Below, in pieces: positions 25,232 to 28,267 of a DNA stretch of 64,000 bases. The stretch spans positions 496,001-560,000 of the forward strand of contig NC_018178.1 of NCBI RefSeq assembly GCF_000279145.1. Reading direction: 5' to 3'. Source of the DNA: Melioribacter roseus P3M-2 (GTDB lineage Bacteria; Bacteroidota; Ignavibacteria; Ignavibacteriales; Melioribacteraceae). Position numbers and translations under genes: made by a program. The notes below the pieces were generated by a model that was not told the origin of the DNA, searched no databases, and worked only from the letters and a program-made list of their open reading frames with translations. The first letter of the stretch is position 1. Every line of letters starts with the position of its first letter.

Positions 25232-26353
25232 TTATTTCGCAAGGTTCATTTTGCGGGTGAACTGATATTGTCCGGCGGTCATTCTTGCAAAGTAGATGCC
25301 GCTTGTTACCTTCTTACCGAAGTTATCCGTACCGTTCCATTCTACGGTGTATTTACCGGGGTTCAGCAATTCATGGTCGATAAGCCTTTTAACTTCCTGC
25401 CCCATGATATCGTAAACCACTACTGACACTTTTTCATTTTTAGGTATGGCGAATTGAATTTTTGTAGACGGATTGAAGGGATTAGGATAATTTTGCGACA
25501 ACTGATAATCCGAAGGAATTGAGCCGTCGGACTCGATTAGTCCCGTAACACTGTGCGGATCGCCATGGCACGGTTCGCAATCCATCTGAGTCATAACCGT
25601 ATTGAAAGCAGCCGGACCGTGACATGTCTGACATTGAGCGGCATATTCGTCAGTTACGTAAGTGGACGTAAATGTACCTGCAAAATATGCATTCAAAATT
25701 TCAGCGGTTTTTGCCGCAACATCGCCGGCAAGACGAGCGCATCTTTCCTTTCTTTCGATATCGCTCACTTTTTTCTTAGCAATCATACACCATTGAGAAA
25801 CAGATGCATGACACAAAACACTGCCTCCTACCGATTGTGGTAAAACATCGTTGTACTTTTTATCGATATATTTACCGTCGACAGCAGCTTGATTGGCAGC
25901 GTCGCTCGGAAGTTTTTCCGTGCAGTACCAGCCCCATAACTCGTTAATTAATTTTCCGGAGTCGGCTTTTGGTACTACGAGACTGATAAGAGCGGCTCCG
26001 CCGTTTGTGGCTCCGCACAATGTTCCCCAGCCGACGCCTCCGCCTCGACCGAAAAGCATAACCTCGATCGGCATATTAGTCCATGGATCGCCGATTTTCT
26101 CTCTCAGCGCTTCAACCAGACCTCCGTATGCGCCAGAACAGCAATCCATATCGTTCCAGTAAAGATGATGGGCGCGGATACGAACGTCTTCAGGGTCCAA
26201 TGCTTCGTACGGCCAGGGCCAGGTTGCGTCTTTTGGACTAGCTAAAATTTTTCCTCCGGACAATGCGTTCAAACCTGCGACACCGGCTATCGCGCCGATT
26301 GCATATTTGGAGGTGTTCGATAGAAATTCTTTTCTAGTTAATTCTTTCGGCAT
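25232..26353 (-). CDS. Secreted split-Soret-like c-type cytochrome with T9SS sorting domain
   Basis: A 373-residue protein in three parts. The N-terminus (TRKEFLSNTSKYAIGAIAGVAGLNAL) resembles a Tat-type signal with RK in place of RR. Residues about 45-270 match split-Soret/C-GCAxxG-C-C family cytochromes: cysteines at 71, 72 and 113 (TLCGATNGG) and two haem c motifs, CQTCH (241-245) and CEPCH (259-263). Residues 288-373 are a type A C-terminal sorting domain (NYPNPFNPSTKIQF to KMNLAK) for type IX secretion. It is likely an extracellular or surface dihaem redox protein. It follows the TPR gene by 12 bp; AGGAG precedes its ATG. Confidence 0.86.
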   Translation of the reverse strand: MPKELTRKEFLSNTSKYAIGAIAGVAGLNALSGGKILASPKDATWPWPYEALDPEDVRIRAHHLYWNDMDCCSGAYGGLVEALREKIGDPWTNMPIEVMLFGRGGGVGWGTLCGATNGGAALISLVVPKADSGKLINELWGWYCTEKLPSDAANQAAVDGKYIDKKYNDVLPQSVGGSVLCHASVSQWCMIAKKKVSDIERKERCARLAGDVAAKTAEILNAYFAGTFTSTYVTDEYAAQCQTCHGPAAFNTVMTQMDCEPCHGDPHSVTGLIESDGSIPSDYQLSQNYPNPFNPSTKIQFAIPKNEKVSVVVYDIMGQEVKRLIDHELLNPGKYTVEWNGTDNFGKKVTSGIYFARMTAGQYQFTRKMNLAK

Positions 26354-26365
26354 AACGTTTCTCCT

Positions 26366-26806
26366 TTAATTATTTAGTTTGACGTACGGTTCTATTAGTT
26401 TTATTATGTGAAACAGTCTTTCATCCGAACTATATTTTGAAGCTTTTTTGAAATTTTTTATTGATTCTTTCGCGTCGCAGTAGAGCCAGAGCATACCGAG
26501 CTGCAAATATTTTTCATATTTATTTTTCGTGGGTATTTCGTCTTTTTCGATTTTATTTACTAGATGAGGGCAGGGACAATCCTCCCAATCGGGTCTTGTG
26601 TTTATTATTATTTCAATGTCCTCTTCAATAAGGGAACAAAATTGACTGAAGGCATCTTCAACTTTACCCACCTGCGTCAGGCATATTATCAGCTTTTTCC
26701 TGATTAATTTGTTTCCGGGGTCTTTATCGAGAGCTTTTTCCAGCTCGTTCAGAGCCGAATAGTAATCCCGGATCATAAAATGATAATTTCCAAGCATCTC
26801 ACTCAT
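26366..26806 (-). CDS. TPR-like protein cotranscribed with the cytochrome
   Basis: A 146-residue protein. The first 30 residues fit a tetratricopeptide repeat (LG, then A18, A25 and P30 at repeat spacing), a second repeat follows at about 34-66, and a third is likely at 100-135 (YEKYLQLGMLWLYCDAKESIKNFKKAS). Between them is a Cys/Pro motif, DCPCPHLV. There is no signal peptide, so it is cytoplasmic and may chaperone or assemble the cytochrome, which is inference. The sigma-54 promoter start falls about 2 bases before ATG 26806, so a downstream start (26797 or 26776) is possible. Confidence 0.72.
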   Translation of the reverse strand: MSEMLGNYHFMIRDYYSALNELEKALDKDPGNKLIRKKLIICLTQVGKVEDAFSQFCSLIEEDIEIIINTRPDWEDCPCPHLVNKIEKDEIPTKNKYEKYLQLGMLWLYCDAKESIKNFKKASKYSSDERLFHIIKLIEPYVKLNN

Positions 26807-26817
26807 GTCTGGAATCG

Positions 26818-26835
26818 ATACAAAATGCTTGCCAA
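26818..26835 (-). promoter_or_regulatory. Candidate sigma-54 promoter of the TPR-cytochrome operon
   Basis: On the minus strand TTGGCAAG-CATT-TTGTAT fits the -24/-12 consensus (TTGGCACG-N4-TTGCAT) with GG and the -12 dinucleotide 10 bases apart. The one important mismatch is GT for GC at -12. A T-run precedes the -24 box. Transcription would start near 26808. Confidence 0.68.
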
Positions 26836-26885
26836 AAAAAAGTTAGTTAAATAGACAAAAAGATGCTTTTATAACTTGCATGAGT

Positions 26886-26899
26886 GTTGCATTTGCAAC
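26886..26899. promoter_or_regulatory. Enhancer-like palindrome, copy 1
   Basis: GTTGCATTTGCAAC, a perfect inverted repeat, followed by CGTTTTTTGGTAA. Its centre is about 85 bp upstream of the predicted sigma-54 start. The same palindrome and flank recur 65 bp away. Confidence 0.78.
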
Positions 26900-26950
26900 G
26901 TTTTTTGGTAACTCTTTAGTGTAGAAAGAATTACGAAATTGCAACGCAAT

Positions 26951-26964
26951 GTTGCACTTGCAAC
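26951..26964. promoter_or_regulatory. Enhancer-like palindrome, copy 2
   Basis: GTTGCACTTGCAAC followed by CGTTTTTAGGTAA, differing from copy 1 at one central position and one flank position. It lies about 150 bp upstream of the predicted start and runs into the stop codon of the PAS activator gene. An extra half-site, TTGCAACGCAA, lies between the copies at 26939-26949. Confidence 0.78.
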
Positions 26965-26968
26965 GTTT

Positions 26969-28267
26969 TTAGGTAAGATTGCTCTCTTTCATCCAGCGCC
27001 AGAGAGTTGTACGATTGATTCCCAGTAGACGAGCTACTTTCGACTTGTTCCAGTGGTTTTCTTCCAGAAGCTGAAGCAGGCGTGCAGGGCTTACACTCTG
27101 GCTTTGCTTTTTACCGCATGTAGTTTTACCGTCGAATATAAATTCCGGAAGAGAACAGAGTGTAATCGATTCCTCGCTTTTCGTTCGAATGACGGCATAT
27201 TCAATTACGTTTTCGAGTTCGCGGATGTTTCCCGGCCAATGATATGCTATTAAAATATCGAGCGCGTCTTTATCGATTTTTACAATCTCTTTTTTGTAGA
27301 CGAAGTCATATTTCTTAAGAAAATGAGTAACCAGAAAAGGAATATCTTCCTTGCGTTCTCTCAATGGCGGCACTTCAATCGGAATTACGTTCAATCTGTA
27401 ATAGAGGTCTTCTCTGAATTTTCCGGCTTCTATTGCTTCTTTAATATCGACATTCGTAGCGGCAATAATTCGCACGTCCACCTTACGCGTTATCGACTCG
27501 CCGAGCCGTTCAAAAGTGCCTTCCTGTATTACCCTCAGCAGCTGCGCCTGCATTTGAATCGGCATTTCCGCAATTTCATCGAGAAAAATCGTTCCGCCGT
27601 CGGCTAATTCGAATCTGCCGATCCTGTCTTTAACCGCATCGGTAAAAGCTCCTTTGGCATGCCCGAATAATTCGCTTGCAAGTAAGGACGGAGGTAATAC
27701 GGCGCAGTTCACTTTAATATATTTTTCGTTTTTTCTTTTGCTCGTAGCCTGGATAGCGTTGGCAATCATCTCCTTGCCCGTACCCGTCTCTCCCGTAATC
27801 AATACGCTGGCGTCGGTATATGCTATCTCCTGAATTAAATTAAAAATATTAGTCATAACGCGGCTATTTCCAACTATCCCGTAGAAATGCTCGCAGTTGT
27901 CGTATTTATTATCGAGCAAATACGACAAGTCCCTGAATGTTACTACCCCGCCAACGGGATTCTGGTCTTCGTCTTTCAATATTCCGACATTCAACTTAAC
28001 ATTTACAAACGTGCCGTCTTTCTTTTTAATTCTAGATTTTAAGTCAAACAGATTTCTGCCGCTTGAAAGAGCTTCCGCAATAGGACATTTGCCTGTGCAA
28101 AGGTCGGACTGAAAAACCTGCTTGCACATCCTCCCTTTTACTTCATCCGGATCAAATCCGGTTATTCTTTCGGAAGCCTTATTGAAATAATTAATAACAA
28201 AATTTTTGTCGACTGTAAAAACACCCTCGGCAAGAAAATCCAATATTTCTTCTTTTCTTCGATGCAT
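26969..28267 (-). CDS. PAS-domain sigma-54-dependent transcriptional activator
   Basis: A 432-residue enhancer-binding protein. Residues 5-118 are a PAS sensor with cysteines C48, C57 and C61 in the segment CKQVFQSDLCTGKCP, which could bind a metal, an Fe-S cluster or act as a redox switch. The AAA+ domain has Walker A GETGTGKE (159-166) and GAFTDA (206-211) where GAFTGA is usual. The C-terminus is a Fis-type helix-turn-helix (NKSKVARLLGINRTTLWRWMK). It is followed by palindromic sites, a sigma-54-like promoter and the TPR-cytochrome operon, its likely target. Confidence 0.92.
   Translation of the reverse strand: MHRRKEEILDFLAEGVFTVDKNFVINYFNKASERITGFDPDEVKGRMCKQVFQSDLCTGKCPIAEALSSGRNLFDLKSRIKKKDGTFVNVKLNVGILKDEDQNPVGGVVTFRDLSYLLDNKYDNCEHFYGIVGNSRVMTNIFNLIQEIAYTDASVLITGETGTGKEMIANAIQATSKRKNEKYIKVNCAVLPPSLLASELFGHAKGAFTDAVKDRIGRFELADGGTIFLDEIAEMPIQMQAQLLRVIQEGTFERLGESITRKVDVRIIAATNVDIKEAIEAGKFREDLYYRLNVIPIEVPPLRERKEDIPFLVTHFLKKYDFVYKKEIVKIDKDALDILIAYHWPGNIRELENVIEYAVIRTKSEESITLCSLPEFIFDGKTTCGKKQSQSVSPARLLQLLEENHWNKSKVARLLGINRTTLWRWMKESNLT

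Follow-up and report, generated by a model that had tools for sequence, protein, structure and literature searches.

Split-Soret cytochromes have stacked haems, an axial histidine that comes from the partner subunit and a split Soret spectrum. Their structure has been solved and, to our knowledge, their function is not settled. The solved member, from Desulfovibrio desulfuricans ATCC 27774 (PDB 1h21; profile NF047622), belongs to a family with extra cysteines at a non-haem iron centre. Split-Soret proteins of Shewanella (SO0939) and of archaea have predicted Tat-type signals, and a sorting domain is not mentioned in the passages that describe them (PMC3623810; PMC4429474). SO0939 is tabulated among putative Tat substrates, its predicted location given as 'E', that is, extracellular (PMC3623810), so the statement of our first-pass annotation that split-Soret cytochromes are otherwise periplasmic was too strong. 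A second described system is the set of ars operons in which CcdA, thioredoxin and a small thioredoxin-like protein recur. In the relevant part of the paper that noted these genes, electrons are proposed to flow to cytoplasmic ArsC, no cytochrome is named and the role of the CcdA and thioredoxin genes is left open (PMC2963123). The third is type IX secretion (T9SS), whose type A cargo carries a C-terminal sorting domain. M. roseus is described as respiring arsenate with non-Arr enzymes in the portion of PMC5492636 that deals with this; the words 'split' and 'Soret' are both absent from the main text of that paper. In the open-licence PMC literature, as far as our searches covered it, nothing on point combined T9SS or its sorting domain with cytochromes, or an ars operon with type IX secretion, beyond PMC3534657, and section 16 of that paper makes no mention of the protein described here.

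The gene described here lies on the minus strand of a 64-kb stretch of DNA, which we call the window, in a genome that consists of a single contig of 3,300,414 bases. A contig of Melioribacter roseus bears a 91% identical gene. The features of the locus, in window positions, are as follows.

25232-26353, minus strand: split-Soret cytochrome with a C-terminal T9SS sorting domain, 373 amino acids from an ATG
26240-26353, minus strand: predicted signal peptide, residues 1-38 (MPKELTRKEFL...KILA), from alignment, motif count and hydropathy; R-K replaces the twin arginine
25553-26230, minus strand: split-Soret / C_GCAxxG_C_C domain, residues 42-267
25619-25633, minus strand: haem motif 1, CQTCH, residues 241-245
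25565-25579, minus strand: haem motif 2, CEPCH, residues 259-263
25235-25501, minus strand: T9SS type A C-terminal sorting domain, residues 285-373, from profile matches and model
26366-26806, minus strand: TPR protein, 146 amino acids, separated from the cytochrome by a 12-base gap and probably co-transcribed with it
26819-26834, minus strand: sigma-54-like -24/-12 site, TGGCAAGCATTTTGTA, upstream of the TPR-cytochrome operon
26875-26965, minus strand: cluster of TGCAAC/GTTGCA repeats, possible sites for the sigma-54 activator
26969-28267, minus strand: sigma-54-dependent activator (PAS, AAA+, Fis HTH), 432 amino acids

AAAGGAG, a good ribosome-binding site, lies a short way before the cytochrome ATG. 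The split-Soret profile NF047622 matched residues 37-269 (E 4.2e-49); its 167 bits fall below the equivalog cut-off of 400, which makes the protein a member of a homologous subfamily rather than an equivalog of the Desulfovibrio protein. The PF09719 (C_GCAxxG_C_C) profile covered residues 80-219. A phmmer search of the PDB found 1h21_A across residues 45-265 (E 6.5e-35) as the sole strong solved relative, the three other matches reaching only E 0.48 to 0.8. An AF2 model built from 27 homologues, of modest confidence (mean pLDDT 73.6, below 50 at residues 105-112 and 268-272), placed residues 42-263 on 1h21 with Z 22.3, 207 aligned residues, rmsd 4.0 and 31% identity, which bears out the split-Soret comparison proposed for the structure. 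Residues 280-373 of the model matched the C-terminal domains of the T9SS proteins PorU (Z 10.4), PorZ (8.9) and mirolase (8.1), and Foldseek agreed, adding the T9SS complex chains 8glk_D and 8gl8_D at weak E-values. Because this Ig-like tail also resembles many unrelated Ig folds, the T9SS assignment is carried by the sequence models TIGR04183 (35.8 bits, cut-off 23) and PF18962 (31.1 bits, cut-off 27), both above cut-off over residues 289-369. The fusion that the first-pass annotation had read from the sequence, a split-Soret-like domain with two CxxCH motifs joined to a type IX sorting signal, is thus upheld by profiles, by 1h21 and by the model, and its presence at all 65 loci analysed below argues against chance. 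A domain scan at E<=0.1 gave no MtrC/MtrF-like match in the cytochrome. We had also considered a link to the SAO selenoproteins and dropped it: the part of the review that deals with SaoC assigns it to the Cys-Cys-COOH family, not to C-GCAxxG-C-C.

To place the protein among its relatives, we collected NF047622 matches, which occurred in 26 of 395 genomes of a phylum sample and 67 of 391 genomes of a class sample, the two samples overlapping. We left out four of the 67 (G432, with a split frame; G629, a contig-edge fragment; G473 and G486, with weak matches of 21-22 bits) and kept 63 genomes with 65 loci, as G463 and G632 carry two each. One further locus, L003, came from the contig search and entered only the motif, promoter and repeat counts, and L002 and L033 are one contig, so that the first 23 loci are 22 distinct ones. 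All 65 loci encode two CxxCH motifs and a sorting tail; a motif in the last 100 residues identified the tail in 64, and L145 was added by reading its sequence. In L145 the motif lies further in and the sorting tail looks doubled. TIGR04183 was also run on seven more proteins; six have the tail and scored 31.9 to 41.8 bits, over the cut-off, and the tail-less L239 gave no match. The 27-sequence alignment shows no variation at Cys 71, 113, 181 and 205, at both CxxCH motifs, at His 62 and at His 182, nor, in the tail, at PNPF, D315, G318, G333, G352 and Y354.

Comparison with 1h21 shows what this subfamily shares with the Desulfovibrio cytochrome and what it has added. The fold, the places of both CxxCH motifs (invariant across 66 tailed forms, L239 and 1h21), His 182 and the conserved non-haem Cys 71, 113, 181, 189 and 205 are common to the two; these cysteines are the extra ones of the iron-centre family, and their role as iron ligands here is putative. 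By contrast, identity is only about 31%, a T9SS tail is added, the signal carries RK, and 65 of the 66 tailed forms (the other has a gap) have His 62 where 1h21 and L239 have Tyr. A FastTree phylogeny of the haem domain, in which many inner nodes are weak, set the 66 tailed forms apart from L239 and 1h21 (support 0.990). In the phylum of a KSB1-titled genome, NF047622 matched 2 of 82 genomes (G744 and G733), and one KSB1-titled genome gave no match. The domain without the sorting domain, which had been named as evidence against an external role if found in relatives, was seen once, in this other phylum: G733 encodes a tail-less form of 281 residues with an RR start and shows no arsenic marker in 19.9 kb. 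A search of genome contigs returned five loci, two of them tail only, and tblastn of plasmid records returned the sorting domain alone, in four Rhodothermus/Salinibacter records. This is a real and conserved subfamily of split-Soret cytochromes, predicted from sequence to be targeted to the surface.

We found that the N terminus departs from a canonical twin-arginine signal. Among 66 members the start motif is RK in 61, KR in one and RH in one. Three were not caught by the pattern: the motif is RQ in L144, L120 is truncated at a contig edge, and in L117 the RK is there but a stop codon comes after it. That stop interrupts the signal region, meaning that the gene is broken or the sequence was misread. 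None of these homologues with a readable start has RR. In our own genome, the Tat-signal model TIGR01409 gave seven matches at E<=10, the cytochrome not among them, and six of the seven carry RR, a biased sample because the model favours RR. We therefore rejected twin-arginine export as first stated, the pair being RK nearly throughout as against RR in six of those seven matches. The hydropathy of the signal is 1.79, compared with 1.44-1.82 for the six RR signals and a median of 2.39 for 83 other tailed frames. The N terminus that had been called 'Tat-like' has R-K (TRKEFL) and a weak hydrophobic stretch, and looks like a drifted Tat signal that may use Sec or Tat. All 26 genomes examined have TatC. 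We assigned the predicted cleavage site, after the nearly invariant A38, by eye. By eye, too, a Tat-like start occurs in 2 of the 88 tailed frames of our own genome, the cytochrome (RK) and a DUF362 protein (RR). The latter, L222:450-1895 (G000:C1:2432577-2435822), pairs a canonical RR Tat-type signal with a T9SS tail, an unusual combination.

The machinery for outer-membrane export is also encoded. SprA scored over cut-off in 26 of 26 genomes, PorU reached 977 bits in our own genome, and TIGR04183 gave 90 matches there, from which we recovered 88 tailed frames, a few of them fragmentary. Given the fold, the haem-binding motifs, the T9SS tail and the translocon and sortase genes, the predicted location of the protein is on or outside the cell, in agreement with what the first-pass annotation had proposed. 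The protein resembles T9SS type A cargo in its complete sorting domain, above cut-off and matching the C-terminal domains of PorU, PorZ and mirolase, and differs in that the cargo is a predicted cytochrome with a Tat-like RK start. That the sorting domain is non-functional and the protein periplasmic, like that of Desulfovibrio, seems to us very improbable. The split-Soret proteins of D. alaskensis are described as periplasmic and without a fitness phenotype in the relevant part of PMC4215793, which would fit such a location; against it stand the tail itself, present at 65 of 65 loci with invariant residues in the 27-sequence alignment, the T9SS machinery and the many other tailed proteins of the same genome.

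To ask in what company the gene is found, we inspected its neighbourhoods and observed in many loci ArsR, ArsM, ArsC, ArsE, ArsP, thioredoxin, CcdA and ACR3. We counted ACR3, ArsM, ArsC, ArsE and ArsP within 10 kb as arsenic markers. Of the 65 loci, 28 have one or more such genes nearby and 23 have two or more kinds. Core ars genes were absent from the stretch examined in the other 37 of 65, where some contigs are short. Control stretches of 19 kb at arbitrary positions in cytochrome-bearing genomes, only 20 in number, contained no arsenic marker (0/20; Fisher p 1e-4 for 28/65 against 0/20). Because the loci are related to each other this p value overstates their independence, and it is more telling that the linkage extends across families and gene arrangements: 9 of 11 families have at least one arsenic-linked locus, in varied gene orders. 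By family, the linked loci number 5/20 in f1 (our own), 7/8 in f2, 2/6 in f4, 3/5 in f5, 2/5 in f8, 3/3 in f10, 0/1 in f11, 1/1 in f19, 4/5 in f56, 1/6 in f57 and 0/5 in f60. In the other phylum, the cytochrome of G744 is tailed and carries RK, and ArsR-ArsE-Trx-CcdA-ArsP come after it.

The identities of these neighbours were checked at L033 with Pfam and NCBIfam models, where acr3 (465 bits), arsenite methyltransferase (352), ArsE-family TIGR00412 (88.5), ArsP_1 (256), DsbD_TM (50) and ArsR-type NF033788 (70) all scored over cut-off; ArsC (TIGR02691) scored 135 bits, below its 174-bit cut-off, yet this was the best family. At the other loci we used HMMs made from these clusters with hand-set bit thresholds, and the activator HMM recovered its targets when these were mixed into control stretches. 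CcdA lies close to 19 of 65 loci, and 17 of 18 thioredoxins in cytochrome loci have a hydrophobic N terminus. CcdA, thioredoxin and the small ArsE/MTH895-family protein recur beside the cytochrome in relatives as they do in the ars operons of PMC2963123; to judge from the model name redox_disulf_2, the last is presumably that paper's redox-active disulfide protein 2. The difference is that here an exported dihaem protein is predicted in or beside the cluster. In the haem-domain tree, the cytochromes of L125 and L134 (family f10) pair with L033 (f1) with support 0.53 within an otherwise f1 clade (0.96), and this nesting of f10 loci with arsenic islands suggests horizontal transfer of the island.

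The association concerns position. In 7 of 26 genomes (G019, G031, G062, G082 with a contig-edge piece, G116, G148 and G259), ACR3 and the cytochrome share a contig and are no more than 25 kb apart, against about 1.3% expected per genome. By contrast, we found no association between the presence of ACR3 and that of the cytochrome (23 of 26 genomes with it and 22 of 29 without it have ACR3; p 0.30), the 29 cytochrome-less genomes all coming from our own order and being taken from listings rather than at random. The arsenic link is one of position only; ACR3 itself is common whether or not a genome has the cytochrome. Our own genome shows no linkage: about 0.7 Mb separates the cytochrome (0.522 Mb) from ACR3 (1.236 Mb). 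Its ars region contains ACR3, ArsC, ArsE, ArsP and ArsR, and 19.5 kb around them gave no match to ArsM, CcdA, thioredoxin, TPR or activator. Lipoprotein- or binding-protein-like and sensor-like frames, recognized by eye, follow, as in MROS_1063-1070 in the section of PMC5492636 that lists these genes. In G290, about 1 kb separates the cytochrome from a weak ACR3-like fragment (C1:1983983-1984120; 21 bits, one stop), possibly a decayed arsenite pump.

The cytochrome also belongs to a recurrent regulatory unit. Among the first 23 loci (22 distinct), the TPR gene is directly upstream of the cytochrome in 16 and the sigma-54 activator upstream of the TPR gene in 15; a TPR gene is near 25 of all 65 loci. 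Scanning from 250 bases before to 40 after the TPR start, we found a sigma-54-like site scoring at least 9 of 11 at 18 of 26 loci, compared with 18 of 336 other genes there. Thirteen of these 18 sites start 26-30 bases before the TPR start (-26 to -30), where four further loci have weaker sites (7-8). The promoter-like matches of L125 and L134 fall on the repeats, not at the usual place, and the sites of L032, L035 and L131 lie nearer the start or inside the frame as called. The DNA upstream contains, on average, 3.7 TGCAAC/GTTGCA half-sites per 300 bases, compared with 0.17 for 1260 control windows; at least two occur in 25 of 26 loci, and at least three per 300 bases occur nowhere else in the window. 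This half-site count, with a model picked after viewing the sequence, is a stronger result than the alternative repeat models, TTGCA-N-TGCAA (8 of 26 loci) and a palindrome (12 of 26). With one contig counted twice in each set, Cys 48, 57 and 61 of the activator PAS domain are conserved in 15, 14 and 15 of 15 sequences, and Cys 42, 77, 79 and 110 of the TPR protein in 16, 16, 16 and 15 of 16. Cys 77 and 79 of the TPR protein form a CPC motif. The cysteines of the two proteins could sense a thiol-reactive metalloid.

The best reading of these observations, to which we give about an even chance, is that the protein is a surface-exported dihaem redox partner of a response to arsenic or another thiol-toxic metalloid, under a sigma-54 activator. 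The N-terminal signal would take the cytochrome across the inner membrane, haem would be attached in the periplasm, and T9SS would carry it across the outer membrane, where the tail would be removed and the protein released or anchored at the surface. The product would be a dihaem protein with a probable extra iron or thiol site, and would act as the outermost redox partner of the response. CcdA and a secreted CxxC thioredoxin, which adjoin the gene in many relatives, may draw on cytoplasmic thiols to supply the periplasm with reducing power, and may there hold the CxxCH cysteines in the reduced state for the attachment of haem or pass electrons to the cytochrome. The dedicated sigma-54 activator would turn on the TPR-cytochrome operon. 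Observed are the domain architecture and its conservation, the genes of the export machinery, the linkage in relatives, and the conserved promoter-like site with the repeats; that haem is loaded, the protein exported and the operon regulated in this way, that electrons flow in this direction and that arsenic is the signal or substrate, we infer. On this reading, the cytochrome offers an extracytoplasmic partner for the CcdA and thioredoxin genes of ars operons. A member of the lineage respires arsenate yet lacks an Arr-type reductase, as reported in part of PMC5492636. A bolder version is speculative and, in our view, more probably wrong than right: an undescribed extracellular arsenic step in which CcdA and thioredoxin feed the cytochrome, which would alter the oxidation state of arsenicals or methylarsenicals at the surface through its haems and Cys/His 62, with a cysteine-sensing sigma-54 activator in control. 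If this were true, the CcdA and thioredoxin genes of ars operons would gain an extracytoplasmic target.

Two other roles have to be weighed against the metalloid reading. The protein might have a general role, as a haem-thiol protein, in thiol, metal or nitrosative stress outside the cytoplasm, its ars neighbours reflecting the tendency of resistance genes to cluster in islands. We regard this as possible but rather doubtful. The many loci that lack core ars genes in the stretch examined (37 of 65) would be expected under it, and the cysteine clusters of the activator and the TPR protein could equally sense several metals or redox stress; in the nitric oxide table for D. desulfuricans, the one part of PMC5701242 that bears on this, ssc has a fold change of -1.74. 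Against it stand the arsenic-free control stretches and the linkage itself, which recurs in differing gene orders across 9 of 11 families and again in another phylum. The other role, which the first-pass annotation had thought conceivable, is that of an extracellular cytochrome with Fe(III) or some other insoluble compound as its electron acceptor. A single small domain with two haems is sparsely equipped for long-range electron transfer, and no multihaem gene appeared among the shared neighbourhood clusters that we looked at, the recurrent neighbours being arsenic, thioredoxin/CcdA, TPR and sigma-54 genes. A T9SS tail on a dihaem domain does fit such a role, as do the reported use of Fe(III) by M. 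roseus (in part of PMC3534657) and the presence in our own genome of tailed proteins with eight and nine CxxCH motifs and MtrC/MtrF-like matches, which could be partners. A split-Soret cytochrome was also found in both ferrihydrite- and nitrate-grown Pyrodictium, where it was not differentially abundant according to the pertinent part of PMC8105010. We consider the Fe(III) role unlikely: the context of arsenic detoxification, thioredoxin/CcdA and a sigma-54 unit lends it no support and speaks for arsenic or thiol stress rather than iron respiration. Conserved, predicted to reach the surface and linked to arsenic genes as well as to a sigma-54-like circuit of their own, these cytochromes have a function that can be tested.

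The cytochrome is not the only haem-motif protein with a sorting tail in this genome. CxxCH occurs in four of the 88 tailed frames: the cytochrome (two motifs), proteins with eight and nine motifs, and one with a single motif, whose sole non-tail domain match is Temptin_C and which is probably no cytochrome. The eight-motif protein (L185; G000:C1:705151-707180; 474 amino acids) has a PF22113 MtrC/MtrF-like match and is a candidate secreted multihaem cytochrome. The nine-motif protein (L218; G000:C1:2382417-2384995; 664 amino acids) likewise matches PF22113 and is a candidate extracellular reductase. To judge by their motifs and domain matches, both are better Fe(III)-reductase candidates than the split-Soret protein, and the split-Soret protein and these two CxxCH-rich proteins point to a redox-cargo class for T9SS.
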